Positions 6,378-35,876 of a stretch of 64,000 bases of DNA are shown piece after piece. Under the pieces are notes generated by a model. That model worked only from the letters and a program-made list of their open reading frames with translations, searched no databases and had not been told where the DNA came from. The DNA is taken from positions 310,001 to 374,000 of the forward strand of contig NZ_PYGC01000002.1 of the NCBI RefSeq assembly GCF_003014495.1, written 5' to 3'. The translations under genes were made by a program, and so were the position numbers. How positions within the stretch are numbered: the first letter of the stretch is position 1; every line of letters begins with the position of its first letter. The stretch comes from Prolixibacter denitrificans (GTDB taxonomy: Bacteria; Bacteroidota; Bacteroidia; Bacteroidales; Prolixibacteraceae).

Positions 6378-6400
6378 GTTTATGTAAGAAATGAGATTTG

Positions 6401-20854: not shown

Positions 20855-23386
20855 ATGGCTGAAAAAGAAGCAAAAGCAAGAATAAAGATTAATAAACTAC
20901 TCGAAGAAGCAGGCTGGAATCTTTTAGACGATGGTTCAAAAAAAGCCAATGTTGTATTTGAAAACAATATTAAGATAACAGAACAGGCAATTAATGACCT
21001 GGGAGAAAATTTCGACAAAACCAAAAATGGATTTATTGACTTTTTGCTCTTAGATGAAAAAGGGTATCCATTAATTGTTTTAGAAGCTAAAGCCGAAGGT
21101 AAAAACCCACTGATTGGTAAAGAACAAGCCCGGAAATATGCTAAATCACAAAATTGCCGATTTATTATTCTTTCAAACGGGAATCTGCATTATTTCTGGG
21201 ATTTAGAAAGGGGCAATCCCTATATCATAACCAATTTTCCTAATCCTGATTCGGTTGAAGGGTACAAAATGTTTAAACCAGACAAAAACCGACTTGTTAC
21301 GGAAAATGTTGATGATGATTATATTGCGCTTACACAATACCCCAGCTATGCCACCGACCCTGAATTTCAAAACGAAGCAACAAGGAGCGATTTCTTCTTT
21401 CGCACCAAAGTAAGGTTCTTACGTCATTATCAGAAAAAAGCAGTAAAAGCTATTCAAAAAGCCGTTGCAGAAAAGAAAGACCGTTTTTTGTTTGAAATGG
21501 CTACAGGGACAGGAAAAACATTAACATCAGCAGCCGTTATAAAACTTTTTCTAAGAACTGGAAATACAAGGCGAGTCTTGTTTTTGGTTGACCGGCTGGA
21601 ATTGGAAGACCAGGCAAAAAAAGCTTTTGATGAATATTTACGTAATGACTATAAAACGGTTATTTACAAAGAAAACCGGGACGATTGGCGGAAAGCTGAA
21701 ATTGTAGTGACCACTGTGCAGTCGCTTCTATTCAATAACAAATTCAAGCGTTTATTCGCACCGACCGATTTTGATTTGGTCATTTCTGATGAAGCGCATC
21801 GCTCAATTGGCGGAAATGCCCGTGCTGTTTTTGAATATTTTGTCGGATATAAATTAGGTTTGACAGCAACTCCAAAAGATTATTTAAAGAAGTACGATGA
21901 TACTAAAAAGACAAAAGACCCACGGGAATTTGAAAGAAGATTGCTTTTAGATACCTATCGTACTTTTGGTTGTGAATCTGGCGAACCAACTTTCCGTTAT
22001 TCTTTGCTTGACGGTGTTAAAGATGATTTTCTGAGAAACCCAACAGTAGTTGATGCAAGAACCGAAATAACTACCCAACTACTTTCAGATGAAGGGTATG
22101 CTGTATTAGAAACAAATGAAGAAAATCAAGAGGATGAAACTTCATTCTTCCAACGTGATTTTGAACGTAAATTTTTCTCAGAAAGAACCAATGTAGTTTT
22201 TTGTAAAACCTTTTTAGAAAACGCCTTAAGAGACCCAATTTCAGGAGAAATGGGCAAAACTATTGTATTTACCGTCAGTCAGAACCATGCAGCAAAACTT
22301 ACGCAGATATTGAATGAAATGGCTGATAAGCTTTACCCGGGAAGATACAATTCCGATTTTGCTGTTCAAGTGACTTCTCTTATTTCAGGGGCTCAACAAA
22401 AGACTTTGAATTTTACCGACAAGAGCAATAATTTGAACGGAACAGGAAATTTTAATCCAGTTTATCGCACTTCAAAAACAAGGGTTTGCGTTACGGTTGG
22501 TATGATGACAACAGGTTATGACTGTACCGATATTCTGAATATTTGTCTGATGCGTCCAATATTTTCACCTCAGGATTTCATCCAAATAAAAGGCAGGGGA
22601 ACTAGAAAACACAACTTTTCGGAACAGATTGTTGATGTTGGGTTAAAGGAAGAATTCAAAGATACCGAAAAGAAAACCTTTAAGCTGTTTGATTTCTTTG
22701 CCAATTGTGAGTATTTCGAAGAAAAATTCAATTATGACGAAGTTTTAAAATTACCTGCAAAGCCATCGAAAAAAGGACAAGGTGGAGATGGTCCAACACC
22801 TATTGAAGAATACGAGACTTTTGAGGAAGACAAAGTTTTGACACTTCAGGAAGAACAAATCGGAATGGAAGGAATGCGTATAGACCGCATGTTCTTCAAT
22901 AAGTTTGAGGATGAAATGAAACAAGATGATTTTGTTGCTGAAAATGTGCGTGAAGGTAAATGGGATTTGGTATTGAATTATATCAATGAAGAGATAATGA
23001 ATAAGCCTGAAGAATACTACACCATTGAAAAATTAAGAAAAGCAGCAGAAGTTGACAGGCGTTTAACGCTACGGGAAATTATTGAGAAAATTTTTGGTTT
23101 AATTCCTTACTTCAAATCAAAAGACGAATTACTGGAAGAAGAGTTTGACAAATTTTTAAGCGACTATAAACCACAGGATAAAGATGATGTTATTGCACTG
23201 AAATACTTCTTTAAAGCATATATTACCGATAACAGGGTAAGAGATATCATTGAAAAGAAAAAATTCAATGAATTAAATGTGAATCCTTCTTTTAATATCA
23301 ACGATTACAAATCGGTTGGTAAAAATTGGAGAATGCTAATACCGGAATATGTGAAGGATTATGTTCCGTTAAATAAATTTATGTAG
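20855..23386 (+). CDS. hsdR: Type I restriction endonuclease, HsdR subunit
   Basis: This 843-residue motor/nuclease subunit has an N-terminal nuclease domain with GFIDFLLLD and VLEAKAEG (PD-(D/E)xK-like, about residues 58-82). A superfamily 2 helicase follows, with MATGTGKT (about 215), ISDEAH (DEAH box, about 312) and LTATP. The C-terminal part resembles the EcoEI-type R-subunit domain. The length is on the short side for HsdR but fits this group. The next gene starts 12 bp after its stop with a good ribosome site (AGGAGA). Confidence 0.92.
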   Translation: MAEKEAKARIKINKLLEEAGWNLLDDGSKKANVVFENNIKITEQAINDLGENFDKTKNGFIDFLLLDEKGYPLIVLEAKAEGKNPLIGKEQARKYAKSQNCRFIILSNGNLHYFWDLERGNPYIITNFPNPDSVEGYKMFKPDKNRLVTENVDDDYIALTQYPSYATDPEFQNEATRSDFFFRTKVRFLRHYQKKAVKAIQKAVAEKKDRFLFEMATGTGKTLTSAAVIKLFLRTGNTRRVLFLVDRLELEDQAKKAFDEYLRNDYKTVIYKENRDDWRKAEIVVTTVQSLLFNNKFKRLFAPTDFDLVISDEAHRSIGGNARAVFEYFVGYKLGLTATPKDYLKKYDDTKKTKDPREFERRLLLDTYRTFGCESGEPTFRYSLLDGVKDDFLRNPTVVDARTEITTQLLSDEGYAVLETNEENQEDETSFFQRDFERKFFSERTNVVFCKTFLENALRDPISGEMGKTIVFTVSQNHAAKLTQILNEMADKLYPGRYNSDFAVQVTSLISGAQQKTLNFTDKSNNLNGTGNFNPVYRTSKTRVCVTVGMMTTGYDCTDILNICLMRPIFSPQDFIQIKGRGTRKHNFSEQIVDVGLKEEFKDTEKKTFKLFDFFANCEYFEEKFNYDEVLKLPAKPSKKGQGGDGPTPIEEYETFEEDKVLTLQEEQIGMEGMRIDRMFFNKFEDEMKQDDFVAENVREGKWDLVLNYINEEIMNKPEEYYTIEKLRKAAEVDRRLTLREIIEKIFGLIPYFKSKDELLEEEFDKFLSDYKPQDKDDVIALKYFFKAYITDNRVRDIIEKKKFNELNVNPSFNINDYKSVGKNWRMLIPEYVKDYVPLNKFM

Positions 23387-23397
23387 GAGAATTATAA

Positions 23398-25965
23398 ATG
23401 TTAGATACAACAACAAAACGAAGAATAGATACAGCCCGTGATATTTTAGTGGGAAAAGTCCCTGACCCAAAAAGTCAGGTGGAGCAGATTACCATTGCAT
23501 TGATTTACAAATTCATGGACGACATGGATTTAGATTCGGAAGAATTAGGCGGTGAACCAACGTTTTTTAGCGGAGAATATGAAAAATACGGTTGGAGAAA
23601 GATATTTAATCCTTCACTCGGTGGTTTTGAAATGCTGAACTTGTATAGTGAAGCTATTTTAAAAATGGGTCAAAACCCCAATTTGCCTCAATTATTTCGT
23701 GATATTTTCAAAAATGCCTATTTGCCTTACCGTGACCCTGAAACGTTGAAAAGTTTCCTGAAAATAATCAATGACTTTTCCTACGACCACAGCGAAAGAT
23801 TGGGTGATGCTTTTGAATATCTTTTGTCGGTTCTGGGAAGCCAGGGCGATGCCGGGCAGTTTCGTACCCCACGCCATGTGATTGACTTTATGACAGCCCT
23901 TATTGCACCAAAGAAAAACGAAACCGTGCTTGACCCTGCATGCGGAACAGCAGGATTTTTAATTTCGGCGTACAAGCATATTTTAAAAGAAAATTCGAGT
24001 AACTACGATAAAACAGACCCTTACACCTTTGAGCAGAATAATGTTAAGCTGGCAGAAATTACCGTAAATGGCAAGCATTACAAAGGCGACAAATTAAGTC
24101 CAGATGACCGGGCACGAATCATCCAAAATATAAAAGGCTACGACATTTCGCCTGATATGGTGCGTTTAAGTTTGGTAAATCTTTATTTGCATGGTTTTAC
24201 AGACCCGCATATTCACGAATACGATACTTTGACCAGTGAAGAACGCTGGAATGAGTTTTTCGATATTATTCTCGCCAATCCGCCTTTCATGTCTCCGAAA
24301 GGTGGCATACGCCCACATAAGCGTTTTGCTGTACAAAGTAAGCGTAGCGAAGTGCTGTTCGTGGATTATATGGCTGAACATCTTACGCCAACCGGAAAAG
24401 CAGCCATTATTGTTCCTGAAGGCATCATTTTTCAAAGTGGCACAGCCTATAAAAGCCTGCGTAAGATGTTGGTAGAAGACAATTATCTGGTGGGTGTTAT
24501 TTCTCTGCCGGCAGGAGTTTTCAATCCATACAGCGGTGTAAAAACATCCATATTGTGGTTGGATAAAAGTCTGGCTAAAAAAACCGACAAAATACTCTTT
24601 GCCAAAATAGAAAACGATGGTTTTGATTTGGGGGCTCAAAGAAGACCAATAAAGCAAAATGATTTACCCGAAGTATTCCGAAAATTAACAGAATACCGGG
24701 ATAAATTGATGCTTGGTGAGGATGTTGATTTTGAAAATGAAGTTTTGGTTTCGTTGGTTGAAAAAGAGAAAATTGAGGAGAATGGGGAATTCAATTTGAG
24801 TGGAGAGAGGTACAAGCAGCAAATAACTACCACATCTCAATTTCCTTATGTTGAACTTAAAGAAATTGTGGATTTCCAAGGTGGTTCACAGCCACCAAAG
24901 GAAACATTCATTTATGAACCTAAAAACGATTACGTTCGGCTAATACAAATAAGAGATTTTGGGAAAAATCCTATACCCACATTTATTCCTGAATCTTCTA
25001 AAAATAAACTTTGTAAGAAGGATGATGTATTTATTGCTCGATACGGAGCATCATTAGGCAGAATTTGTAGAGGTCAAGAAGGGGCTTACAATGTAGCTCT
25101 TCTAAAAACCATTCCGGATGAAAAGAAAATCACAAAAGACTTTTTATTTTTAATTCTTCAATCTGATTTTATTCAAAACAAGATAATTGAATTAGGTAAC
25201 CGGGCAGCACAAGCAGGAGTAAGACCATCAGATTTAGGTGAAGTTCCAATCCCCCTTCCCCCCTTATCCGTTCAGGAAGAAATTGTAGCCGAAATAGAAA
25301 GCTACCAAAAAATAATTGATGGAGCCCGCCAGGTTGTTGAAAACTACAAACCGAAAATTGATATTGACCCGGAATGGGAAATGGTGGAGTTGGGTGAGCA
25401 TTGTAAAATTAAGGGAGGCAACGCCTTTAAAAGTAGTGATTATGTAGATAAAGGTATTCAACTTATAAGAATGGGGAATGTCAAACAAATGTTCTTTGAC
25501 AAAGAAAATTCACCTTCCTATTTACCACAAGATTATTTGAATATTTATTCGGACTATGTTCTTGTGAAAGGCGATTTATTAATCTCAATGACAGGAACTG
25601 TCGGTAAAGAAGACTACGGAAATGTTTGCCAAATTGATGTTGACCAACAATTCCTACTTAATCAACGAGTTGGCAAGTTTGAAATTCAAACTGAGCAATT
25701 AGATGGTCAATACCTATATTTCATTGCTCAAACTGACAATTTCAGAAAACAACTCTTTTCAAATTCATCAGGTGGTGTTAGACAAGCTAATATTAGCAAT
25801 AAAGGAATTGAGAGTATTTCTATTCCCTTGCCCGACATTGATACCCAACACCAAATCGTAGCTCAAATTGAAAAAGAGCAAAAATTGGTGAATGCCAACA
25901 AGCAACTCATAGAAATATTCGAGCAAAAAATAAAAGACCGCATAGCAAAAGTTTGGGGAGAATAA
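23398..25965 (+). CDS. Type I modification methyltransferase fused to specificity subunit (HsdM-HsdS)
   Basis: This 855-residue fusion has an HsdM N-terminal helical part, then an N6-adenine methyltransferase with AdoMet motif DPACGTAGFLIS (about 181-192) and catalytic NPPF (about 299). From about residue 485 there are two target-recognition domains in tandem (VELKEIVDFQGGSQPP... and VELGEHCKIKGGNAF...), each closed by a coiled-coil with PLP...Q.EIVAEIE / HQIVAQIEKE. One polypeptide therefore supplies both modification and DNA recognition. The stop overlaps the ATG of the next gene (TAATG). Confidence 0.92.
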   Translation: MLDTTTKRRIDTARDILVGKVPDPKSQVEQITIALIYKFMDDMDLDSEELGGEPTFFSGEYEKYGWRKIFNPSLGGFEMLNLYSEAILKMGQNPNLPQLFRDIFKNAYLPYRDPETLKSFLKIINDFSYDHSERLGDAFEYLLSVLGSQGDAGQFRTPRHVIDFMTALIAPKKNETVLDPACGTAGFLISAYKHILKENSSNYDKTDPYTFEQNNVKLAEITVNGKHYKGDKLSPDDRARIIQNIKGYDISPDMVRLSLVNLYLHGFTDPHIHEYDTLTSEERWNEFFDIILANPPFMSPKGGIRPHKRFAVQSKRSEVLFVDYMAEHLTPTGKAAIIVPEGIIFQSGTAYKSLRKMLVEDNYLVGVISLPAGVFNPYSGVKTSILWLDKSLAKKTDKILFAKIENDGFDLGAQRRPIKQNDLPEVFRKLTEYRDKLMLGEDVDFENEVLVSLVEKEKIEENGEFNLSGERYKQQITTTSQFPYVELKEIVDFQGGSQPPKETFIYEPKNDYVRLIQIRDFGKNPIPTFIPESSKNKLCKKDDVFIARYGASLGRICRGQEGAYNVALLKTIPDEKKITKDFLFLILQSDFIQNKIIELGNRAAQAGVRPSDLGEVPIPLPPLSVQEEIVAEIESYQKIIDGARQVVENYKPKIDIDPEWEMVELGEHCKIKGGNAFKSSDYVDKGIQLIRMGNVKQMFFDKENSPSYLPQDYLNIYSDYVLVKGDLLISMTGTVGKEDYGNVCQIDVDQQFLLNQRVGKFEIQTEQLDGQYLYFIAQTDNFRKQLFSNSSGGVRQANISNKGIESISIPLPDIDTQHQIVAQIEKEQKLVNANKQLIEIFEQKIKDRIAKVWGE

Positions 25966-26696
25966 TGGAAGAAGCCTATCAAATATTACAATATTTGCCT
26001 AATCGTTTTAAACAAAGAGACGAACAGGAATACATTGAATTCTTGTGGGATGCTTTTGAAAGCAATTACCAAAACGAGAAGTTTCAATTTGCCTTTATTG
26101 CTTACCACATGCTTTTTATGAGTTTTGTGTATTTTACCATTTGGCAAATTAAATCAGTCAGGGCAGATGATTTTGACAAGATTAAACTTGGATTTCATAA
26201 TAATTTAGGCAATGCACAAAATCCGTTTGGTTTTAGCATAGAAAATGAAAGCAAAGTATTTAATCTGTTAAAATATTTATGTAATTCTCACTCAGATGTC
26301 GAATCTCTTATTGGGCAATACAAAAGACTGGTAAAAGAACGGAACGATATTGCACATGCCAGCGGAAACATGCCATTTCGTACTGAAAGCTATTTGCAAA
26401 GCCGCTTGAATGATATTATACGATACGTGGCAGAAATACAGGAATTCAGTAAACCAGTAATTGAAGAATGTTTTACAAAGTTCCTTATTGAGAGCCAAGA
26501 CGAAGAAGAAAGGCAATATTCAATAATTGAAGAACAGATAAAGGAAGTTTTAATCCACGAGCATTACCTATCACAAAAAGATTTAGAAATATGCATGGAC
26601 TATGATATTACTTCACTTTCAGACCAGGAGAAATACCCTGAGATTGAAAGGATATTTGAAACATTAAGAAATGAATATGCCGAACAAACAGCCTGA
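25965..26696 (+). CDS. HEPN-like protein coupled to the type I system
   Basis: This protein of 243 residues starts at an ATG that overlaps the HsdM-HsdS stop, so it is translationally coupled. It contains LVKERNDIAHASGN at about residues 122-135, an R-x4-H motif as in HEPN domains, which are often RNases or scaffolds in defence and toxin-antitoxin loci. The rest is helical. An HEPN partner is not a standard type I subunit. It could act as an abortive effector when restriction fails, or as a structural partner. The HEPN call rests on the motif and helical content only. Confidence 0.65.
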   Translation: MEEAYQILQYLPNRFKQRDEQEYIEFLWDAFESNYQNEKFQFAFIAYHMLFMSFVYFTIWQIKSVRADDFDKIKLGFHNNLGNAQNPFGFSIENESKVFNLLKYLCNSHSDVESLIGQYKRLVKERNDIAHASGNMPFRTESYLQSRLNDIIRYVAEIQEFSKPVIEECFTKFLIESQDEEERQYSIIEEQIKEVLIHEHYLSQKDLEICMDYDITSLSDQEKYPEIERIFETLRNEYAEQTA

Positions 26697-26814
26697 CCCT
26701 TCGCATCCATACACAATTGCCAAGACGCTCAAGGCAACCGCTCAAACCGAAAATTGTTAAAGAGTATGGTTGCAACAACGCTGACAAGAAAAAAAATGAA
26801 AAAGCACGGGGATA

Positions 26815-26946
26815 CAACATTGGCTATACATAATGCGGGTGAAAGTGCTAAAAAGGAAGTAGTTACATTAAATGAACTTATTGGTATTCGGACAACGAAG
26901 TGCCTTGAAACCCCGCACTAAGCATAGCAGAGACCGTTATTTCGTT
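26815..26946. repeat. Long imperfect inverted repeat (attC-like layout)
   Basis: GCTATACATAATGCGGG (26823-26839) pairs with CCCGCACTAAGCATAGC (26912-26928) at 14 of 17 positions. Outside these arms lie ATACAAC and GTTATTT, roughly placed like the R'' and R' boxes of integron attC sites. The boxes do not match the attC consensus fully and no integron integrase is in the window. It sits between the restriction operon and the next cargo gene. Confidence 0.5.
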
Positions 26947-26960
26947 TAATCAAAAGGACG

Positions 26961-27587
26961 ATGAAATATAGAATACCAAGGTTTTTGTACCGAGGTGACA
27001 ATGACCACAAAAACAAGAGAGAGCTAAAAAATACTTTGAGCTATTATCAACTTCAATCAAATCTCATTAATGGTGGCGTTGGAAGAGAAATTATTGAAAA
27101 GCCACTGTTTGATTTAATAAATAAACACGTTGATACCGGATGGTCCGAAACTCATTTCCTTTCCTTTTCCGAGAGTGAGGATATTGCTCTTCGATTAGGA
27201 TTACATTGTGAACTCGACAAAGTGGTGAGAAATTTCATGGATTACCAAGAATACTTTGAAAATGACAAGGATTGGGATTTTGCATTAATAGCATTGGATA
27301 CTGATAAAATGTCGTTGGTTCAAGTTGGTCAAGGTGTGTATGAAGGATTTTACAGTCCAAGTCTCAAAGAGTTTGAATTTCAACTCAAATACCGGATAGT
27401 TCTGATTGATGTAGTAAGGTGTTTAGATAATCAGAAAGGTTATGAAGAAGCCAAGAAAAATTCCGAGAGAGATAGAGAATGGCTTGTATTACCTGCAACG
27501 GTTAAACAACTTAATTTTGGTGTTGAAAATTCTGGAATTTTAGATGGAGCCTGCATTCATGAAATAAAAAAATACAAGAGATATTGA
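26961..27587 (+). CDS. Cargo protein with ADP-ribosyltransferase-like motifs
   Basis: I do not recognise this 208-residue family. In order it shows FLYRGD (Arg at about residue 11), THFLSFSESEDIALRL (about 64-79, like the S-T-S strand) and KEFEFQ (about 136-141, an E-x-E). The R / S / E-x-E order and spacing resemble arginine-type mono-ADP-ribosyltransferases. If so, it would be an NAD-using toxin or effector. No signal peptide and no obvious antitoxin lie beside it. It stands alone between the restriction genes and the ubiquitin-like operon. Confidence 0.55.
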   Translation: MKYRIPRFLYRGDNDHKNKRELKNTLSYYQLQSNLINGGVGREIIEKPLFDLINKHVDTGWSETHFLSFSESEDIALRLGLHCELDKVVRNFMDYQEYFENDKDWDFALIALDTDKMSLVQVGQGVYEGFYSPSLKEFEFQLKYRIVLIDVVRCLDNQKGYEEAKKNSERDREWLVLPATVKQLNFGVENSGILDGACIHEIKKYKRY

Positions 27588-27626
27588 CACTGCCTGATAT
27601 TTTTTTGTGTCATCGTGATAAAAATT

Positions 27627-27929
27627 CTAAACCCATTTTATTCTGCCTTTTTTGATGAAGAAGTGACTTTTACATTCTATTCGTCTATTTATTGAAGGTG
27701 AAACTGTAGGTTTTTTAAACCAACCCAGTTTTATTTTCCATCTGGGGCGAGTTGTTGGTATCAGATTTAGGTAAATAATCTCGTTGCAACCACAAGGACA
27801 AATAAATGCAGCAGTCCATCTGTGCTTTTGATTTCCTTCGACATATAGAGTATTGGTGTGCAACAATTGTGGAATCTCATTTACAAATTGGTATTTATAT
27901 CTGAGTCTTTTAGCTTTCCATTTCCACAT
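27627..27929 (-). CDS. DUF6527-like protein of the ubiquitin-like operon
   Basis: This 100-residue protein has FICPCGCNEIIYLNL at about residues 42-56 and CKSHFFIKKGRIKW at about 86-99. This is the pattern of DUF6527 proteins often found at the end of bacterial ubiquitin-like operons. I recall that a serine-protease-like activity has been proposed for a small protein of such operons; whether this one qualifies is inference. Its conserved Ser-His (SHF) and nearby Lys are candidates. It starts 1 nt after the E1-JAMM stop, so it is the last gene of the operon. Confidence 0.7.
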   Translation of the reverse strand: MWKWKAKRLRYKYQFVNEIPQLLHTNTLYVEGNQKHRWTAAFICPCGCNEIIYLNLIPTTRPRWKIKLGWFKKPTVSPSINRRIECKSHFFIKKGRIKWV

Positions 27930-27930
27930 A

Positions 27931-29316
27931 TCAACTGAGTTCTGGTAATCCTAAAAGAGGTGAAATATCACCTTTCCCAATGGTTTTTATAAAGAGTTTG
28001 TCTTCTTCAACTTCCTCTGCAAGATACATTGGATCTGATAAGACAAATCGTTGTATGGAATACTTGTTATTCGGCTCTATTCTAAAAGGGTGTATTCTTG
28101 CTAAGAAATCGTTCACAGCAAGGCTCGCGTAAAACATGTTGACACTTATTACAGCAGGGGAATCGGTCTTTGCTTTTTTCAGATATTTCTCTTTTTCTAG
28201 ATTTGCGTAATGCTCGGGATTTTTCCGTAATTCTCCTGCTGAAAGCAGATCCTCGGGGGTATAAAGACCTCTTTTAAGTAATGAGGCTCGACCTGGGGTT
28301 ACGTAGTTAACGGTACCGTGGATCGATTCGATACCACCTTTTCCATCAGCATCTAATCTTACACCAATGTCGAGTAAAGGGGTCAAATAGTAGTTCGATA
28401 TTAAGTTTAACAAGTGTCTGCCATCAACGGTGTCAACACAGCCAAATATGAAATCGCACGATGCAACTGTTTTGATTGCTTCCATATTGTTATAAAGATT
28501 GTCAGAATATGTAGTCACCTCAGTACCAAATCCAAATGACATTATCGCATTTTTAAGTACTTCCACTTTGTGCCTTCGCTTAACGGCGTCCTCCTGCGTT
28601 GCGTTGATTATCCTATTCAGATTCTTTTCTTCAACTACATCAGGGTCGACTAAAACTAGTTTACCTATTCCTAATCTTGCCAATTGTTCAATAACAGGAC
28701 TACCAGTTCCCGAACATCCAATAACAGCTACGGACATTTTCTTCAGAATTTGGTATGTTCCCTCTCCAAAAGCTTGAATATTTCTGATATCGACCTCTCT
28801 TTTTTGGAGACCTTCGTCATTATTTTGCTCAAACCTTTTTATGTCATCAGAGATAATAGATACTGAACTTATGGCATGGAAAGTGAGCTTGTCGTCAATT
28901 ATTCTTCCAAGAATTCTCCCATCAGGTACCATAATGGCTGAAAGATGGTTTTTAGTATTTAATGTCCATCCGAAAACTGATTCGAATAGCTTTAGATCAG
29001 AATCGTCATCTGTATTGGAAAAATTAGAGTAACCTGAAGGGTGAGAATGTATTTTGAGTACTGAATAGCCGTTTTTTTCTGCTTCAACAAGTATTGGTTG
29101 AATACGATCGGTTTTCCAATCAAGGAATAGTTCCTCTCTAACAATACAATCTGAATAAGGGATTGGAAAGATCTTGTGAACCGTAAATATTGTCTCGTCT
29201 TTCAGCGTTAATCTGCCACATAATCCTATAGCAATAGCTTCTTTTCCGTCACCAGGATACAAATACTGCTTCAATTCGCGGTAATGAATTCCGCTTATTC
29301 TTAGTTTACAACTCAT
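27931..29316 (-). CDS. JAMM peptidase-E1 (ThiF-like) fusion of a ubiquitin-like system
   Basis: This 461-residue protein has two domains. The N-terminal JAB/MPN metallopeptidase has Glu26 and HSHPSGYSNFSNTD (His90, His92, Ser100, Asp103), matching E...HxH-x7-S-x2-D exactly. The C-terminal E1/ThiF adenylation domain (about 193-440) has VIGCSGTGSP (nucleotide loop), VLVDPDVVEEKNLNR (Asp and Arg finger) and FGCVDTVDGR. E1 activates the C terminus of a ubiquitin-like protein with ATP; JAMM enzymes remove or trim such proteins. The start is the ATG at 29316, which overlaps the E2-like stop (ATGA). A longer frame starts seven codons upstream but lacks this coupling. Confidence 0.92.
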   Translation of the reverse strand: MSCKLRISGIHYRELKQYLYPGDGKEAIAIGLCGRLTLKDETIFTVHKIFPIPYSDCIVREELFLDWKTDRIQPILVEAEKNGYSVLKIHSHPSGYSNFSNTDDDSDLKLFESVFGWTLNTKNHLSAIMVPDGRILGRIIDDKLTFHAISSVSIISDDIKRFEQNNDEGLQKREVDIRNIQAFGEGTYQILKKMSVAVIGCSGTGSPVIEQLARLGIGKLVLVDPDVVEEKNLNRIINATQEDAVKRRHKVEVLKNAIMSFGFGTEVTTYSDNLYNNMEAIKTVASCDFIFGCVDTVDGRHLLNLISNYYLTPLLDIGVRLDADGKGGIESIHGTVNYVTPGRASLLKRGLYTPEDLLSAGELRKNPEHYANLEKEKYLKKAKTDSPAVISVNMFYASLAVNDFLARIHPFRIEPNNKYSIQRFVLSDPMYLAEEVEEDKLFIKTIGKGDISPLLGLPELS

Positions 29317-29708
29317 TGAAATTCCCTTTCTAGCCAATATTTAATTGAAATAAAATGAGTGATGATGCTGTCAACGCCTGGTTCCCAGGCATTGGTGCCT
29401 GTCCTATGTCTAGACCAACGTTGCCATGATTTCTCATCTAAAGCTTGTACACAATTGGTGGCATTTATTTGTTTGCCATCTAATCTTTGTAACGCAGGAT
29501 GAAAATATGCCATATCAAGAGGTGCTATGGGATAGCCTGAGGGAATTTTAATTGCAACGTCCACACAGGTTATTGAATATCCTTTTGGCACAGGGTAATC
29601 ATAAACAATCAACCACTCTGAATTAGATTCTTTAAGGGTCTCCCAATTGAGACCCAAAGAATCCAAAAACGAAGTGTCTTCAGGGGGTAATAAAAATTGT
29701 TTTCTCAT
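29313..29708 (-). CDS. E2-like conjugating protein (prokaryotic E2 family E type)
   Basis: This 131-residue protein matches the bacterial E2-like proteins of Prok-E2_E type. Features are WLIVYDYPVPKGY, VAIKIPSGYPIAPLDMAYF (the proline-rich E2 beta-meander), then LDGKQINATNCVQALDEKSW and RWSRHR. The two cysteines are Cys48 and Cys86. Cys86 sits where an E2 catalytic cysteine would be plausible, but related systems may not use an E2 thioester, so the chemistry is open. It overlaps both neighbours by ATGA, which implies tight translational coupling. Confidence 0.85.
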   Translation of the reverse strand: MRKQFLLPPEDTSFLDSLGLNWETLKESNSEWLIVYDYPVPKGYSITCVDVAIKIPSGYPIAPLDMAYFHPALQRLDGKQINATNCVQALDEKSWQRWSRHRTGTNAWEPGVDSIITHFISIKYWLEREFQ

Positions 29709-30004
29709 CTAGAGCCCTCCTGTTGCTGTAATGGAATTGTCATGAATCTTTCTATGCCGGGCTCAGTAAAATCAACCAATTCTTCATAGTTGATTTTTCT
29801 CACTGTTCCACTTCTTAGCTTCTGATTCAATTGGTAGTGGTTGTATGGATTCTTATTGGCCAATTCGAGGATTTCTTTTCCAGTCATAGCATCGACATCA
29901 ACAACATACTTGTTCCGGTCAACACGAATTTGATACGTCTTCCCTTTTTCAGGTTTTCCTAAGGGATTTTTTTCTGAGAATTCTTCTAAATCAATGATTT
30001 CCAT
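29705..30004 (-). CDS. Ubiquitin-like protein (multiubiquitin-domain family, single domain)
   Basis: This 99-residue protein has the multiubiquitin/beta-grasp pattern: YQIRVDRNKYVVDVDAMTGK (strands 1-2 and loop), EILELANKNPYNHYQL (helix), and ELVDFTEPGIERFMTIP near the end. There is only one beta-grasp unit. The C terminus reads QQEGSR, so a glycine lies two residues from the end and would need trimming to become the conjugated terminus. A JAMM domain and a DUF6527 protein are encoded in the same operon and could do this. It is the presumed modifier of the system. Confidence 0.85.
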   Translation of the reverse strand: MEIIDLEEFSEKNPLGKPEKGKTYQIRVDRNKYVVDVDAMTGKEILELANKNPYNHYQLNQKLRSGTVRKINYEELVDFTEPGIERFMTIPLQQQEGSR

Positions 30005-30034
30005 TGTGTAAATGTTTAAAGGGTTAAATACTAG

Positions 30035-30208
30035 TTATTTTTCTTTTCTAACACCCTTAAAGGGTTTGTTATCAGACTTCTGATCCATGAATTTACCTGA
30101 TTCGGTATCTCTTTTTGTCCAACGGTCAATTTTTGGATTATAAGTTTGAGATCTTTGTTTTACGGCACCTTCTCGGTGTCCATCGTTGGGTTTTCCGTTT
30201 TTAGCCAT
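30035..30208 (-). CDS. Small charged protein at the head of the ubiquitin-like operon
   Basis: This 57-residue, strongly basic and hydrophilic protein starts MAKNGKPNDGHREGAVKQRS, then NPKIDRWTKRDTESGKFMD and KPFKGVRKEK. The ATG at 30208 is chosen over a longer frame because it is preceded by GGAG at good spacing. I have seen similar short proteins near defence and restriction loci, but no function is known to me. As the first gene of the operon, it could be a modification substrate, an adaptor, or a stability switch. Confidence 0.72.
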   Translation of the reverse strand: MAKNGKPNDGHREGAVKQRSQTYNPKIDRWTKRDTESGKFMDQKSDNKPFKGVRKEK

Positions 30209-30304
30209 AATAGGACTCCTTTCTTTTTTTATATTTGTTAATTGAAATCGCGGATTAAGGCAATTCCTCATAAAAAATACTTCAAAGCGTTACCAACGGT
30301 TTTA

Positions 30305-30319
30305 GGTATATATAATACC
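30305..30319. promoter_or_regulatory. Palindrome between the divergent ubiquitin-like and sigma-like transcripts
   Basis: GGTATATATAATACC, with arms GGTAT and ATACC, lies 9 bp before the sigma-like start in the 119-bp divergent region. It is a candidate operator or promoter part for one or both directions. Confidence 0.35.
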
Positions 30320-30327
30320 AGTCAAGA

Positions 30328-30990
30328 ATGATAGATTGGAGAAATTATAAGGAAACTCCGACAACTGAACTTATTGAGCTTATAAAGTCAAAGGACGGTC
30401 TTGGAAATCTTGATATAGCTAAAGCAGCGTTTCGTGCTTTTTATTTTAGATTTTGGCCTGTAATTGCAAAGACGGCCGAACGTATAAGCCTAAACAACAA
30501 CTTTGACAAAGAATTTGCAGTAGAAATTCTTGAAAGAACCTTTAAGCGGTTCTGGAAATATCCAAATTTTAGGCTTGAAAAAATGAAAGCCTCTACTCCT
30601 GATAAAGGGGTAGAATTGTACCTTCTACGAATTGCACAAAATTCATTTTATGATTTACTCAATGAGCGAAAAGGAATAAATGTCTCTCCATATGATGGTA
30701 GTGAGGAAATCGTTTATGATGTTGAAATTCCTGATGAATTATTGAATGTCAGAAGTGAAAAACTCATTATTCTCAAAAAGGTGTTGGAGACATTTTCTTG
30801 GAAGCACAAAGTTATTTACTTGACCTACCTTAAGTATGAAATGCAGGGACATAAATTACCTAGGAAGCTTTTAACTGAATTGCGTGAAAAGCTTGATATC
30901 TCTCAAGATACGATACGCTATTACAGATATGAGGTAATTAGGAAAATAAACGAATACACCGAGTTATGGCAACAAAGGGACGAAGTTTAG
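30328..30990 (+). CDS. Sigma-70-like (ECF-like) RNA polymerase sigma factor
   Basis: This 220-residue protein has the layout of a small sigma factor. A region 2-like segment FRAFYFRFWPVIAKTAERIS (about 35-54) continues to a helix ending LYLLRIAQNSFYDLLNERK. The C-terminal region 4-like helix-turn-helix reads LREKLDISQDTIRYYRYEVI (about 190-209). It is divergent from the ubiquitin-like operon with 119 bp between the starts, and overlaps the next gene by 25 bp. It may drive the operon or respond to it; this is inferred from position. Confidence 0.7.
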   Translation: MIDWRNYKETPTTELIELIKSKDGLGNLDIAKAAFRAFYFRFWPVIAKTAERISLNNNFDKEFAVEILERTFKRFWKYPNFRLEKMKASTPDKGVELYLLRIAQNSFYDLLNERKGINVSPYDGSEEIVYDVEIPDELLNVRSEKLIILKKVLETFSWKHKVIYLTYLKYEMQGHKLPRKLLTELREKLDISQDTIRYYRYEVIRKINEYTELWQQRDEV

Positions 30991-31757
30991 ATCAAAGCAA
31001 AGTAGATCATATATTGGCTTCAACAGGTTTTATTTTTCCTCGAACTGAACATGAACTGGATTATTTTAATAACCTGTATGCCGACTGGGACTCTGAATTG
31101 AAAAATTGCCTGGGAGATCCCGATAAAATATTTGCAGAGGAAGAAAAGAAAATGAATACGAATTTACCTCTGGCAAAGAATGGAAGGAACAAAAACACCT
31201 ATTTCAAAAGAGCTGTTCTCGCAGCTGAAATAACATCTCAGTTATATGAAGAACCAACTTTTGGTCATGTAAAGCTTCAAAAACTCATGTTTTTGTGTGA
31301 AAACATAGAAGGAATGAACATCAGAAATCATTATTCTAAGCAGGTTGCCGGCCCTTACGATAATAAGTTCATGCATAGTATTGATCATGAATTTAAAAAG
31401 CAAGGATGGTTTAATGTAAAGAGAGAAAAGAGAGGGGTGATTACGAGGTATTTGTACGCTCCTTCTAACAATTATGGTTCGCATAGAAGATATTACAATA
31501 GATATTTTAGTAGCAGTAAGGGGCGGATACAATGGTTTATTGATGTATTTAAAAAGGCTCCGTTTCATAAAGTTGAGCTTGTTGCTACTCTTTATGGTTG
31601 TTGGTTAGAATTAATTGAAAAGAATCAGCTTGTTAACGATGAAAGTCTCATAAAGCTTCTATATGATTGGTCAGAGCAGAAGAAAAAATTTGCCTGGGAA
31701 GATGCCCAAAAAGCAATTAGGTGGATGATAGAAAATGGTGTTACTCCAGCAGGTTAG
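30966..31757 (+). CDS. Panacea-like (DUF4065-related) domain protein
   Basis: This 263-residue protein has a central block HVKLQKLMFLCENIEGMN followed by SKQVAGPYDNKFMHSIDHE and KKQGWFNV. It resembles the KLQKLLY...GP pattern of Panacea/SocA-type domains, which serve as antitoxin or proteolysis-adaptor modules. The N-terminal about 90 residues have no match I can name. It overlaps the sigma-like gene and is therefore coupled to it. Confidence 0.6.
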   Translation: MATKGRSLDQSKVDHILASTGFIFPRTEHELDYFNNLYADWDSELKNCLGDPDKIFAEEEKKMNTNLPLAKNGRNKNTYFKRAVLAAEITSQLYEEPTFGHVKLQKLMFLCENIEGMNIRNHYSKQVAGPYDNKFMHSIDHEFKKQGWFNVKREKRGVITRYLYAPSNNYGSHRRYYNRYFSSSKGRIQWFIDVFKKAPFHKVELVATLYGCWLELIEKNQLVNDESLIKLLYDWSEQKKKFAWEDAQKAIRWMIENGVTPAG

Positions 31758-31928
31758 TTGTTGATATTTTCAGGGGTCTGAGATTCACAACACTATTTAA
31801 AAAATGTGTAAAAAAGAAAAGCCTGGGCTAGACCTCTTTTATAGCCAGCCGAACCTTCTTGGTTTCAAATATGATTCGAACTGAATCAGAGTGATTTCCC
31901 AATTGCCTTTGAGGTTTTTTTTTCATCG

Positions 31929-31980
31929 CTTTCCTCGAGGACAAAAATGCCTTTTCGTTATTGTTGTGTATCGAGGAAAG
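31929..31980. repeat. Spaced 10-bp inverted repeat
   Basis: CTTTCCTCGA (31929-31938) and TCGAGGAAAG (31971-31980) are perfect arms 32 bp apart in the 235-bp gap between two cargo blocks. No T-run follows on either strand, so it is not a normal terminator. The role is unknown. Confidence 0.4.
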
Positions 31981-31992
31981 AGAGATTACGGA

Positions 31993-32295
31993 CTAACTCA
32001 CCTTTTCAGCTTTCTTTAGCGTAAATGATTTTACCAAAAACAAGACTGCTGCGATGATATCAATGGGCATCCAAGCAGATTTGTCGTCCAGGTAAATCGG
32101 TAGCAGCGGATTAAACAGAATGGCGATTATTGCGAATGCTACCACCCAGAAATTGATTCCATTGTCAATCTCACTAATAATTGCCGCAACTGCTCCGATT
32201 GTTACTGCAATGCGAAGGAGAATGTAAAATCCGCTGGGTAAGGCTGCCAGTGAGAGTAACAATAAGGCTGCGCTTAGTAAAAGTACAAATCTCAT
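31993..32295 (-). CDS. Small integral membrane protein
   Basis: This 100-residue protein has about four hydrophobic segments and a charged end KSFTLKKAEKVS. It resembles small DUF6804-type membrane proteins. The function is unknown. It is the first of several minus-strand cargo genes that are spaced rather than overlapping. Confidence 0.65.
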   Translation of the reverse strand: MRFVLLLSAALLLLSLAALPSGFYILLRIAVTIGAVAAIISEIDNGINFWVVAFAIIAILFNPLLPIYLDDKSAWMPIDIIAAVLFLVKSFTLKKAEKVS

Positions 32296-32432
32296 TATAT
32301 AAATAAATTTAGTTATGTTGTTATTTGGTGGTAAGATATTGAAATTTGTTCAAGGAAAAAGCATCTTAATCTTTATTGTTGGATTTGACAACAGTAATAG
32401 CGTTTAACGGACGAAGCCACCCTTTGACGTGC

Positions 32433-32804
32433 CTATCTTAACAAATCCTTTTTCAACGCATTATATTCTTCATCGGTAATCGCTCCGCTATTTTTTAGAT
32501 CTGCCAATTTTTGTAGTTGATCAATTTTATTTTGTCTGTCAGTTGATTTGAGGTTTGTTCTACCCAGGTCGATTGCTTTAATCTTTTTGTAAGTTCCTTT
32601 AGCGGAATCTTTTGCCAATTCTCCGACTCCTTTAAATGTATCAATCATCATATCCCAATCTTCTGGGTCGGCGATCTTACTGCCGAATCTACCTCTCACA
32701 CGAACATTAAATAGTTTTGAAAAACCCGCCATTATTGCACCTAAGAAAATCATTAGAAATATCAAAAGGCCAATGACAAGTAAAATGGTGCCGATAGTAT
32801 CCAT
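32433..32804 (-). CDS. Membrane-anchored SHOCT-domain protein
   Basis: This 123-residue protein has one N-terminal transmembrane helix (about residues 6-28), a basic middle part, and a C-terminal SHOCT motif (LQKLADLKNSGAITDEEYNA). SHOCT is a short oligomerisation motif found in many membrane-linked proteins. The role is unknown. Confidence 0.75.
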   Translation of the reverse strand: MDTIGTILLVIGLLIFLMIFLGAIMAGFSKLFNVRVRGRFGSKIADPEDWDMMIDTFKGVGELAKDSAKGTYKKIKAIDLGRTNLKSTDRQNKIDQLQKLADLKNSGAITDEEYNALKKDLLR

Positions 32805-32879
32805 GATTAAGAAATTAAATTGTTGTTGTTTCTGATTTACTTAATTGTGATTTTAAGTTATTAGGAAATATTCTAAAGG

Positions 32880-33503
32880 TTACTCCCAAATATTGTCGAT
32901 TACGATACTATTGAACATCTGTCCAAATAGCGGCTTGATCGCATCATACCTATTCTTAACACTGCTCTCGGATTCACCGATTTTATTCGTAACCATAAAA
33001 GTCAGAGTAAAAATATAATCCTGGTAAATAACAATATATGCCGATGAATAAGAAAAGAATACTCGATTCATTCTTTTACCGGTCATTGTATAATTAACCA
33101 ATCCAGCTCTTTGGCCTTCAATTTGGATATTACTATTACTCGAAATATATGATCCATTGGGAGGTACAAACATGTTTAACCCTTCTTTGGACAATAGGTG
33201 GCTTATTTCGGGTTTCGTAAAAATGTCATTGCTTTTTCTAACCATGAGCAGTGCATTCACATAATTTCCGGGCTGAACAAGGTCGACCAGAACATGTGGA
33301 TGACGGCCTTCAAGAGACTTCCATGATTGCGGGTACTTTAAATGTATTTTTAAACCTTGTGATTTACCTTGCCCATTCGAAAAATATTCAATGGTTTTAC
33401 CAGCATTGAATTCACTAATCGAATTCTTCTCTATGGATGTTTGAGCATGCATGGAGGTTGTTAGCAAACAAAGCAGGGAAATGTATAATAGTTTGTAAAT
33501 CAT
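32880..33503 (-). CDS. Secreted protein of unknown function
   Basis: This 207-residue protein has a clear signal peptide (hydrophobic core, then MHAQ cleavage at about residue 20). The mature part reads LKIHLKYPQSWKSLEGRHPH and later FFSYSSAYIVIYQDYIFTLT. It resembles small PsbP/DUF1795-like periplasmic folds by layout, but this is weak. Confidence 0.6.
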   Translation of the reverse strand: MIYKLLYISLLCLLTTSMHAQTSIEKNSISEFNAGKTIEYFSNGQGKSQGLKIHLKYPQSWKSLEGRHPHVLVDLVQPGNYVNALLMVRKSNDIFTKPEISHLLSKEGLNMFVPPNGSYISSNSNIQIEGQRAGLVNYTMTGKRMNRVFFSYSSAYIVIYQDYIFTLTFMVTNKIGESESSVKNRYDAIKPLFGQMFNSIVIDNIWE

Positions 33504-33536
33504 ATCGATGTACTATTTGAAGGGGGTTTGCGTTAA

Positions 33537-33956
33537 TTATTCAATTTTCTTGGTCCTCATCAGTTGACTGCACTTGGGGCAAATTGGATTCTCTTTCGTC
33601 CATTTAATGCCTTGAGTATTTCCACAGCGAAGGCATTTGGATTCTGGTCTTTCATCATGGTCTGCATAAAGAGCCGGTTCAATAGATTGATCTCCTTCGA
33701 TTTCTTTGGGTAAGTCCAGATTGAAGTCTGGAAATACTTCTTTCATTTCGAAGAAAAGAGGCAAAGTTTTGTGCAGCGTAATTTCCGTAACAATGCTTTC
33801 GTAAAGAATTTGGCAATCCGGGCATACAAATGTTTCCATGTAGTTGTTGCAGCCTTTATCGAGATACCGTTCTCCTGCCACTTGTGCCTCATATCCGCAA
33901 TGGTCACAATGAAATACTCTTTTGTAAGGTGGATTTCCTTCGCTCATTTCAGTCAT
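33537..33956 (-). CDS. Double zinc-ribbon protein
   Basis: This 139-residue soluble protein has four CxxC pairs: CDHC and CPDC in the first half, CLRC and CPKC in the second. They should form two zinc ribbons around an acidic middle segment. It could bind nucleic acid or protein; there is no family name I can support. Confidence 0.65.
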   Translation of the reverse strand: MTEMSEGNPPYKRVFHCDHCGYEAQVAGERYLDKGCNNYMETFVCPDCQILYESIVTEITLHKTLPLFFEMKEVFPDFNLDLPKEIEGDQSIEPALYADHDERPESKCLRCGNTQGIKWTKENPICPKCSQLMRTKKIE

Positions 33957-33997
33957 TTTTGAAAAACAGGGTTTTATTCGTTAGAGGATCAAAAGGC

Positions 33998-34798
33998 CTA
34001 ATTCCTCCAGCTATTTTTCAATTGGTAGATAAGTAGGATCAACATTAAGCCAATGAGAACTGCAACAATTGGAATGATGGCTTTGAACGTCTCCTCTCTT
34101 TTCTTGGCTTTTGCTTTCTCTAAGGCCTTATCCAGATCTGGGTATATGTCAAGCGTGCTTCCTAAATCCTTTTCATATTTGGAAACATCTACATTAGAAG
34201 GAATAGGTTCCAAAGACTGTCCGGCCTTAACTTCATGTATATCAAATTTTCCAGGGTCTAAGAAAGATAATGGGTCTTCCTCTGTATTAGTTTTATCTGA
34301 TTGCCAGTTAGTGGAATTGGAAAAGGAATAAAACTGCTTGATCTCCGAAAACAAGAAATTCTGGGGCTTCAATATGAAGTTGATATTTTTTGAAGGGAGT
34401 TGTGCTTTTATTCCTTTCAAGGATGCCAAAGCATCGAAATATATTATGAACCTGGCGTTGCTGTTTCGGCTATTGTACGCTGTCAATGTGATTGGATTCG
34501 CGTTAGTATTTACAGAGCGTATATTGAACCGTTCGCGGTAGTCTGCAGAGCGAATCGTAATATGTGATTTCTCCAGTATTATTTCCCCGTCTTCGTTTGT
34601 TTGCCCACTCTTACCGTTTACAAAATAGGTTGATGACGAATAAGGTAGTGTGAGGGATGATTGACCGGAGCCATATTGTTTGGGCGGACTTGGATTGGCG
34701 ACAATCGTAACTGAGGTACAAAGCACAGTACTGATAATTGTTATCAGTTGAAATTTGAAATACCTACGTTGGGGAAAGGTTTTGAATAAAGGTCGCAT
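33998..34798 (-). CDS. Exported single-pass membrane protein of unknown function
   Basis: This 266-residue protein has an N-terminal signal-like helix, a mature domain of about 180 residues rich in beta-strand-like and Ser/Asn residues, and a C-terminal transmembrane helix (IIPIVAVLIGLMLILLIYQL) after a charged helical stretch. It is probably anchored in the inner membrane with the domain outside. No family recognised. Confidence 0.6.
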   Translation of the reverse strand: MRPLFKTFPQRRYFKFQLITIISTVLCTSVTIVANPSPPKQYGSGQSSLTLPYSSSTYFVNGKSGQTNEDGEIILEKSHITIRSADYRERFNIRSVNTNANPITLTAYNSRNSNARFIIYFDALASLKGIKAQLPSKNINFILKPQNFLFSEIKQFYSFSNSTNWQSDKTNTEEDPLSFLDPGKFDIHEVKAGQSLEPIPSNVDVSKYEKDLGSTLDIYPDLDKALEKAKAKKREETFKAIIPIVAVLIGLMLILLIYQLKNSWRN

Positions 34799-34849
34799 GG
34801 CAAATATAGGTTAATTTAGATTGACTATTTGAAATATGGCACCAAGCGA

Positions 34850-35308
34850 TTAACCGAGCATTTCCGCGAACAGCATGCTTTTTTTAAGTGTGTTATCGAC
34901 TCGTTCCGGCGTAATACCCATGTTTTCGAAGTAGGCTGCGGCGGTCATTAATTCTTCGGCTAATGTCTTACCATCTGCATGAATCATACCCATGGCAGTG
35001 ATAATGTACCAGTCCTTTTGTGAGCTTGTTAAGCTATTTAGTGTTGCCAGTACTTCCTCTCTGTCCATATCCATTAATTCAAGTACAGCGATATTAATAT
35101 CGTCATCCAATGGGTAATCCAGCATCATAGCAGTCTCTTCCAGACACCTTGCTTCGCTTCTGTCATAATCTCCATCAGCCATTGCAATTACAATCAGACT
35201 GCCGATTATTGCTTTCTTTTGCCTTAATGTGAAGTCACTGTTGAAGTCCTGGAAGTGTTGTTTTACAGATTCCTTTTGGTTGTTTTTTCTGAATAGATTA
35301 AAAAGCAT
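34850..35308 (-). CDS. TerB-like protein
   Basis: This 152-residue helical protein has the TerB-like pattern ADGDYDRSEARCLEE (about 44-58) and a second MIHADGKTLAEEL (about 108-120), each with acidic residues suited to metal binding. TerB-like domains occur in stress and phage-defence clusters. It is divergent from the XRE regulator, whose operators lie in the shared 152-bp region. Confidence 0.72.
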   Translation of the reverse strand: MLFNLFRKNNQKESVKQHFQDFNSDFTLRQKKAIIGSLIVIAMADGDYDRSEARCLEETAMMLDYPLDDDINIAVLELMDMDREEVLATLNSLTSSQKDWYIITAMGMIHADGKTLAEELMTAAAYFENMGITPERVDNTLKKSMLFAEMLG

Positions 35309-35394
35309 AATAAGGTATTTTTAAGGTTAAATAATGATTTGCGTGCTGTTGGTTGGTGCATGTTTTATGTGAATGTAGTATATCTCAAAGTGGT

Positions 35395-35461
35395 GTTATC
35401 ATTTATGATAACCTCATTTCAAATTTAAAACAAAAAATTAGTTGTCAGAAATGATAACTAA
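35395..35461 (+). promoter_or_regulatory. Paired operator palindromes of the XRE regulator
   Basis: GTTATCAT-TT-ATGATAAC (35395-35412) is a perfect palindrome with a 2-bp centre. A second copy, TTAGTTGTCA-GAAA-TGATAACTAA (35438-35461), has one mismatch and overlaps the start codon of the regulator. The shared half-site is TGATAAC. This fits self-repression and control of the divergent TerB-like gene. Confidence 0.75.
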
Positions 35462-35682
35462 TGGAAATCGGTCAACTTCAGCAAAAAATTGGAGCGCGCG
35501 TCAGAACGTTGCGGGAATCTAAGGGGATTTCTCAACAGAATCTGGCTGCCATCTGCAATTTTGAGAAGGCCAATCTTTCCAGGCTCGAAGCTGGTCGAAC
35601 CAATCCTACTGTTTCCACTTTGTACAAGATTTCTCAGGCACTTGAAATTCCGCTGTCGGATATCGTCGATATTGACGATTAG
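35461..35682 (+). CDS. XRE-family helix-turn-helix regulator
   Basis: This 73-residue protein is one Cro/C1-type HTH domain: IGARVRTLRESKGISQQNLA, then SRLEAGRTNPTVSTLYKIS. It is the size of a minimal repressor or antitoxin. Two palindromes sit directly upstream. It probably controls the right half of the island cargo. Confidence 0.9.
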   Translation: MEIGQLQQKIGARVRTLRESKGISQQNLAAICNFEKANLSRLEAGRTNPTVSTLYKISQALEIPLSDIVDIDD

Positions 35683-35794
35683 GAGCTATTCCTGATTGGC
35701 GAAAGTAGGTGCATTTTGTTTGGTGTATTTATTTAGTCAACTTATTGTTAACGAAATAGAAAAGTGATTATTGCCTGAACGTTTAGTGAAAAAG

Positions 35795-35825
35795 AAAAGC
35801 CCACCGTGTTGGTGAGCTTTCTTGT
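35795..35825 (-). terminator. Terminator of the right-end operon
   Basis: AAAGC and CACC pair with GGTG and GCTTT (one mismatch in the stem) around GTGTT at about 35796-35820. It lies after the RepA-like gene on the minus strand. Confidence 0.55.
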
Positions 35826-35876
35826 TCATCCATCCATCCTTTTCTCTTAATGGTATTAGATGGATGGACGGTGACC

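Follow-up and report, generated by a model that had tools for sequence, protein, structure and literature searches.

A Bub ubiquitin-like operon on a tRNA-Met island of Prolixibacter denitrificans and a divergent sigma-like gene pair that may control it

Analysis of a 64,000-nucleotide stretch of the Prolixibacter denitrificans genome (contig NZ_PYGC01000002.1, positions 310,001 to 374,000; hereafter the window) identified five minus-strand genes at positions 27627-30208 that, judged by homology, are a member of the Bub (bacterial ubiquitination-like) ubiquitin-like pathway carried on a tRNA-Met island. A divergent gene pair next to them, encoding a sigma-70-like protein and its partner, may be an on-switch for Bub and other antiviral operons. 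We consider it probable that the locus combines a Bub operon, the non-cysteine chemistry proposed for such operons and sigma-type control. The core operon is of an already known kind, and neither its JAMM-E1 fusion nor its DUF6527 gene is new; the locus is set apart as a variant by its controller and its lead gene.

Assignment of the operon to the Bub pathway

The operon was initially described in an original prediction made from the letters of the window alone. All five open reading frames (ORFs) were confirmed at the predicted positions on the minus strand, each with a family match: (i) a lead gene of the PDC-S38 family encoding 57 amino acids (30038-30208; PADLOC hmmscan E-value 1e-30), (ii) a BubA-like ubiquitin-like protein (Ubl) of 99 amino acids with one Multi_ubiq domain (29705-30004; Pfam PF14452, 3e-12), (iii) a BubB-like E2 protein of the Prok-E2_E family, 131 amino acids long (29313-29708; Pfam 4e-39), (iv) a BubCD-like JAMM-E1 fusion of 461 amino acids counted from ATG (27931-29316), and (v) a DUF6527 protein of 100 amino acids, predicted to bind metal (27627-27929; Pfam 4e-23). 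The tight junctions noted earlier were also found, as the Ubl and E2 genes and the E2 and JAMM-E1 genes overlap by ATGA, and the JAMM-E1 and DUF6527 genes lie 1 nt apart; the spacing between the PDC-S38 and Ubl genes is 30 nt. The lead-gene ORF is open up to 30271 (78 amino acids), and in this longer form the PADLOC family match begins at residue 22; the start is most likely ATG 30208, since it is preceded by the ribosome-binding site AAAGGAG. For the JAMM-E1 protein, ATG 29316 gives 461 amino acids and an upstream in-frame TTG gives 468; its residue numbers below follow the TTG form.

The JAMM-E1 protein has the Citrobacter BubCD (PDB 9ea4) as its full-length best match (E-value 5.8e-75, residues 19-467 of 468), and the E2 protein matches the Citrobacter BubB (9eae, 1.4e-30), so the suggestion that the locus belongs to the Bub pathway was right. 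For the Ubl, a match was found to a multi-ubiquitin-domain protein of known structure (9cd2, 1.5e-5). These homologies to solved structures speak against the absence of a beta-grasp fold in the Ubl or of an E2 fold in the 131-residue protein. In Pfam, the JAMM-E1 protein matches ThiF (4e-31); within its own genome, it is its sole strong match, with one weak ThiF-type match elsewhere (1.4e-7). Three points weigh against the reading as a whole: the Ubl matches the Citrobacter BubA with an E-value of only 0.14, the Prok-JAB match of the JAMM domain (5e-4) is below the Pfam cut-off, and Bub protection against phage has not been demonstrated so far (PMC13373217).

Relatives of the operon are widespread on plasmids. 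A tblastn search with the JAMM-E1 protein gave matches in 189 of 72,556 plasmid records; in 109 of these, the match covered at least 80% of the query. Gene order was inspected in 19 plasmid records, and the same order was observed on plasmids of Pontibacter, an abditibacterium, planctomycetes, Neotabrizicola, Methylocystis, rhizobia and Enterobacteriaceae; the family E-values and this shared order in other phyla exclude a chance arrangement. In the sample of 395 genomes from the phylum, the Prok-E2_E family occurs in nine. A single weak locus (L012) came up when contigs were scanned with BubCD. The set of Bub loci compared below comprises 26 loci, including the window; two loci with related but cysteine-bearing E1 proteins (L068 and L069) were left out. 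Separate single-Ubl forms are found in four other loci (L103, L109, L150 and L151).

The Bub pathway was defined by Ye et al. 2026 (10.1038/s41594-025-01696-1) and Gong et al. 2025, as cited in PMC13373217 and PMC12687455. A set of polyUbl, cysteine-less E2, JAB-E1 fusion and metal-binding protein appeared under the name type 6e in a 2006 description, which noted a solo Ubl for one species (PMC1779556). The fusion of peptidase and E1, which was first taken as a distinguishing feature of the window operon, is the same in the solved Citrobacter BubCD. DUF6527, the other feature first taken as distinguishing, was found beside 23 of the 26 Bub loci, a count that includes the window.

The divergent sigma-like module

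The original five-gene account had its genes right and missed two controller-like genes at 30328-31757. On the plus strand, divergent to the operon, positions 30328-30990 encode a sigma-70-like protein of 220 amino acids, and positions 30966-31757 encode its partner of 263 amino acids, in which alignment, PADLOC and Foldseek reveal the N-terminal domain of the module and a domain similar to the DarG C-terminus.

A profile built from five relatives of the sigma-like protein found 14 strong family places in the 395 genomes (E-value at most 5e-13), separated by a gap from generic sigma factors, which start at 3e-7. A gene for an M78 (IrrE/CapP-type) peptidase stands beside the sigma-like gene in 12 of these 14 loci, and in ten of the 12 an ORF of 113-140 amino acids lies between the two genes; the ORF listing contains no such small ORF in L144 and L148. 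In nine of the 14 loci, the module is divergent to a defence-type operon: Bub in the window and L063, E1-type in L075 (with DUF6527) and L140 (with a Ubl), CBASS (cyclic oligonucleotide-based antiphage signaling system) in L087, L093, L141 and L142, and Bil-like in L146 (BilD match 5e-15). As a control, the next-ranked sigma loci were inspected, and 0 of 14 had a defence operon and 0 of 14 an M78 peptidase; two of the control stretches do not reach 14 kb, and this control addresses the background, not the discovery.

The sigma-like protein was also found in two of the 72,556 plasmid records, from Chryseobacterium and Segatella. On the Chryseobacterium plasmid, which is independent of the family set, a sigma-70 gene, a gene for 116 amino acids and an ImmA/IrrE gene face a Pycsar operon; the Segatella plasmid carries the sigma-module trio, and its annotation names no such defence operon. 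The relative in L202 is annotated as 'sigma-70 family'.

The window has a different arrangement of the same module. No M78 match was found at 23301-37300, and the two strong loci lacking M78, the window and L063, are the two with a DarG-like fusion; both are Bub loci. The N-terminal domain of the partner is shared, by alignment, with the small partner of the sigma/M78 modules. Its C-terminal domain matches DarG (2e-10) and the HsdM C-terminus (1e-37) in PADLOC and resembles HsdS and HsdM C-termini; its predicted fold is shared with the DarG antitoxin of PDB 7yk3 (Foldseek probability 1.00, E-value 3.8e-3), in a model with a mean pLDDT (predicted local distance difference test) of 72.5 and a poor N-terminal domain. 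In contrast to DarG, the partner has a different N-terminal domain and no macrodomain match; no search for DarT was made. By eye, the C-terminal domain had looked like Panacea; this name was dropped, as Pfam gave no such match and both Foldseek and PADLOC indicated DarG instead. The DarG-C-terminal-like domain also ends longer proteins that look like type I specificity subunits by eye (L163, 223-2109; L165, 1477-3513), and in L184 (6865-10738) a DarG-like partner faces a CBASS operon that encodes a cyclase, an E2-like protein and the nuclease NucC. The first genes of L184, L102, L104 and L158 had been taken by eye for sigma genes; hhalign gave no support, and they were not counted. The first gene of L103, also uncounted, has a Sigma70_r2 match, the sole one in that divergent-pair group.

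We propose that the partner would keep the sigma-like protein bound, that a stress signal, most probably phage or DNA damage, would free it, and that the freed protein would transcribe the operon from the intergenic region, which bears a palindrome. Cleavage of the partner would fall to a separate M78 peptidase in the relatives; in the window, the fused DarG-like domain would act instead. This stress switch is inferred from the neighbourhood, from the activation of M78 proteases by single-stranded DNA in Deinococcus and CBASS (PMC10904395; PMC13373217), and from the roles of CapH+CapP, CapW and CapK+CapS, which are operon-adjacent controllers of CBASS, Bub and Bil (PMC13373217). M78 is common to the CapH+CapP type and the relatives of the window module, and in the window the fused DarG-like domain replaces that peptidase. 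Whereas the known controllers use a helix-turn-helix (HTH), WYL or STAS-winged-HTH repressor, the candidate controller in the window is sigma-70-like; the divergent neighbours are a sigma-like protein and a DarG-like partner rather than the HTH repressor and M78 peptidase of the CapH+CapP type. Tentatively, and with somewhat less than even confidence, we suggest an undescribed fourth class of controllers, in which a sigma-70-like factor and its partner (an anti-sigma factor), switched by M78 or a DarG-like domain, would act on one palindrome to drive Bub, CBASS, Pycsar and Bil-like operons, often led by PDC-S38. A sigma-type controller is not named in the cited portions of PMC13373217 and PMC12839542, in a limited literature search that covered few subscription papers.

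Several observations count against such a controller. The TIGR02937 sigma70-ECF match of the window protein (2e-8) scores 34.1 bits, below the curated cut-off of 42.9, and its relatives also stay below the curated sigma cut-off. Five of the 14 strong loci were used to build the search profile, 9/14 of the control queries came from strong loci, and no defence operon was seen in five of the 14 loci (L143-L145, L147 and L148). The weak sigma scores, the five family members lacking a defence operon and the resemblance of the partner to the DarG antitoxin and to HsdS/HsdM C-termini would all fit a pair that is a separate toxin-antitoxin-like or defence unit rather than the controller of the operon. 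We judge this alternative unlikely, though the most serious of those considered, as the divergent orientation and the intergenic palindrome are common to unrelated cargo, and the same slot is occupied by CapW, CapH+CapP or CapK+CapS in other Bub operons (PMC13373217). Among the loci studied here, the neighbours in L066, L106 and L152 look consistent, by annotation or Pfam, with CapW, CapH+CapP or CapK+CapS.

In L143, L144, L145, L147 and L148, the sigma-like and M78 genes stand among ordinary-looking genes, with a small ORF between them in L143, L145 and L147; these modules are perhaps an ancestral stress module.

The intergenic palindrome

An approximate-match search of eight divergent regions for words of 14-24 bases yielded the palindrome AAACCGTTACTAACGGTTTTAGTA of L075. 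The total score was compared with 15 first-order Markov resamples per width; it was 119 at width 24 (resamples: mean 105.5, maximum 112) and 96 at width 18 (mean 85.4, maximum 90). Being almost the same as L141, L142 did not enter this test, and only the first ~150 bases of the L141 region were used. The window copy, an imperfect palindrome at 30284-30307, is a putative operator or promoter; it matches the L075 palindrome at 20 of 24 positions and is the best place in the 64 kb. The other matches are 20 in L087, 19 in L093 and 18 in L140, and L202, outside the training set, reaches 18/24. A common site is less well supported by L146 (15/24), L141 (14/24) and L063 (13/24), which are near background. 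Counts of exact 6-8-mers and dyads were not clearly above shuffles. The palindrome rests on the cross-locus comparison, because a repeat search of the intergenic region found only an unrelated 8-nt pair. It can mean either a site for a dimeric repressor or two back-to-back sigma promoters.

The PDC-S38 lead gene

The first gene of the operon had been described only as a small basic protein; the gene is present, and its membership in the PDC-S38 family had been missed. PDC-S38 was found in 20 of the 395 genomes of the phylum, at 21 places. Excluding two matches (G359 and G105), 19 places were examined at length, and in 12 of them PDC-S38 has an operon with a nucleotide cyclase or of E1 type as its neighbour (the window, L066, L071, L072, L082, L084, L087-L091 and L093); no such operon was seen in L074, L083, L085, L086, L092, L094 and L095, as far as these loci could be viewed. 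The family is thus not restricted to Bub, since it also occurs beside cyclase and other E1-type operons, and its distribution would fit an accessory function common to defence operons. On a Neotabrizicola plasmid (L150), PDC-S38 lies directly behind the Bub operon (3e-11); on a 5.5-kb Klebsiella plasmid of ColRNAI type (L203, 1539-1709; similar records are among the matches listed), it is divergent from a WYL regulator and also adjoins a DUF1883 gene, and in Phocaeicola it stands among TIR/SIR2 genes. Streptococcus and Spirosoma plasmids with PDC-S38 have no such operon named in their annotation. A literature search, limited and with most subscription papers outside its scope, found no paper under the name PDC-S38.

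A further observation concerns this family. In L089, what by eye seems to be an IS110-type transposase gene (6038-7006) separates PDC-S38 from a 2TM-cyclase-E2-like operon.

Proposed conjugation chemistry

Non-cysteine (oxyester) chemistry has been proposed for the Bub pathway. The JAMM motif (E33, H97-x-H99-x7-S107-x2-D110) and the E1 nucleotide loop are intact in the window protein, as the original prediction stated, and all 26 Bub loci retain the five JAMM residues that were checked. The window Ubl ends in ...QQQEGSR, the Ubls of L150 and L151 end in ...QTEG, and in the alignment of fused Ubl-E2 proteins ...EG runs straight into E2. Since the Ubls of L150 and L151 end in EG and the fused forms continue past it, we infer a JAMM cut after EG.

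The following pathway would fit these motifs: (i) the JAMM domain trims the Ubl tail at EG|SR, (ii) the E1 domain adenylates the exposed glycine, (iii) the Ubl is passed to a hydroxyl on E1 (Ser352) and/or E2 (the Ser99 region), not to a cysteine, (iv) it is then moved onto target proteins, and (v) the JAMM domain also strips it off targets, with DUF6527 as a putative metal-binding accessory.

At the E1 crossover position, the 26 Bub loci have Ser in 18, Thr in five, and Asp (L062), Gly (L109) and Cys (L066) in one each. The last three cases tell against the proposed relay, because with such residues at this position Ser352 need not be the acceptor. L066 may be a different subtype; Cys also occurs at this position in L068 and L069, both outside the Bub count.

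Among 28 aligned E2 sequences, a cysteine occurs in at most four at any column, so none is conserved. This absence is also what would be expected if the E2-fold protein were merely a scaffold, a dead E2, with the E1 handing the Ubl directly to targets, and Iyer et al. 2006 considered this E2 type probably catalytically inactive for its missing cysteine (PMC1779556). We find this improbable, since Ser99 and His101 of the E2 motif WSRH are invariant in all 28 sequences, and BubCD and BubB occur together in PDB entries 9eae and 9eav, which suggests a working complex.

The DUF6527 protein

DUF6527 was detected by phmmer beside 23 of the 26 Bub loci and was not found by the same search in L064, L067 and L153; the family is present in 25 of the 395 genomes of the phylum sample. 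The window protein contains C44-x-C46-x-C48 and C86-x2-H89; in an alignment of 25 rows, C44, C48, W64, P78, S79 and C86 are invariant, and C46 and H89 nearly so, a pattern consistent with a metal site. The predicted model is all-beta (pLDDT 89) and has no PDB match at an E-value of at most 1. The metal-binding protein Y of type 6e has the signature C-x3-C-x35-38-H-x2-C (PMC1779556), and the DUF6527 of the window has C44-x3-C48-x37-C86-x2-H89, with the last two residues reversed; protein Y is probably DUF6527. As for PDC-S38, no paper was found under the name DUF6527 in the limited literature search.

In 12 other loci (L070-L073, L076-L080, L096, L098 and L099), DUF6527 stands beside an E1-like protein of 383-398 amino acids, and no Prok-E2_E match was found for these E1-like neighbours; in L071 and L072, a gene for 93-105 amino acids precedes the E1-like protein. 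These loci may represent a second system of the phylum that is linked to DUF6527. In two rhizobial Bub operons (L155 and L156), the gene directly after DUF6527 carries the annotation ATP-dependent Clp protease proteolytic subunit, which may connect Bub tagging with degradation.

The mobile island and neighbouring genes

The predicted tRNA island was confirmed. A tyrosine integrase gene (38571-39794; PF00589) adjoins tRNA-Met (40061-40137), and the first 24 bp of the latter on the plus strand, which are the 3' end of the tRNA, are repeated exactly at 17530. The island thus spans 22.5 kb (17530-40084) between exact 24-bp direct repeats. This mobile setting could suit a copy that is decayed or a silent passenger, which we regard as very improbable given the five intact ORFs, the intact JAMM and nucleotide-binding motifs, the conserved start/stop overlaps and the ribosome-binding site.

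The island also carries type I restriction genes at 20855-25965 (HsdR-like at 20855 and a fused HsdM-S-like gene at 23398) and a HEPN-like protein (25953-26696; a weak match, below the cut-off). DUF3871 and Sig70_bacteroi1 family matches occur among the window proteins scanned and point to the Bacteroidota. Convergent to the Bub operon, positions 26961-27587 of the plus strand encode a protein of 208 amino acids that looks ADP-ribosyltransferase-like by eye; no significant match was found in Pfam, NCBIfam or PADLOC (best Pfam E-value 0.05), and no relative stands beside the Bub loci searched.

Comparison with known systems

The Citrobacter Bub proteins (PDB 9ea4, 9ea5, 9ea8, 9eae and 9eav) show the same JAMM-E1 fusion, cysteine-less E2 and multi-ubiquitin-type Ubl, and plasmid records of Citrobacter koseri and Enterobacter roggenkampii have a DUF6527 neighbour, as in the window. 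The latter two have one long multiubiquitin gene that also matches E2, whereas the window has a single Ubl separate from E2. The window differs from them further by its PDC-S38 lead gene and by a sigma-type divergent pair in place of the apparent CapK/CapS. Type 6e resembles the window in its Ubl, E2/RWD protein lacking the cysteine, JAB-E1 fusion and metal-binding protein Y; unlike the window, the cited portions of PMC1779556 mention neither PDC-S38 nor a regulator for it.

A Bil or type II CBASS operon, or a sulfur-carrier (ThiS/MoaD) pathway, would account for the ThiF-family E1 matches to PADLOC E1-E2 and NCBIfam ThiF/MoeB models and for the match of the Ubl to a solved BilA (8u38, 1.5e-4), but these were ruled out on gene content and scores, with hardly any probability left to them: Bil needs separate Ubl, E2, JAB and E1 genes, and here JAB and E1 form one ORF; the full-length best match of the JAMM-E1 protein is BubCD; the NCBIfam matches are far below curated cut-offs; and JAB is reported absent from thiamine and molybdenum cofactor operons (PMC1779556). 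No CD-NTase (cGAS/DncV-like nucleotidyltransferase) was found by Pfam and PADLOC in the five genes and their neighbours, the other ORFs of the window having been checked by eye only. The original separation from Bil and type II CBASS was thus sound, with JAMM and E1 in one ORF and no CD-NTase nearby.

Significance

Among 544 Bub operons, CapW or CapH+CapP was reported in 219 and CapK+CapS in 59 (PMC13373217); if the two groups do not overlap, about half of the Bub operons lack a controller named there. A sigma-type module recurring beside CBASS, Pycsar, Bub and Bil-like operons would, if true, supply such a controller, and the signal that turns on these pathways would become directly testable. 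The compact Bub set with one separate Ubl is useful for the cysteine-less E1/E2 relay and for the role of DUF6527. The neighbourhood of the operon matters more than the operon, which itself widens a known pathway.

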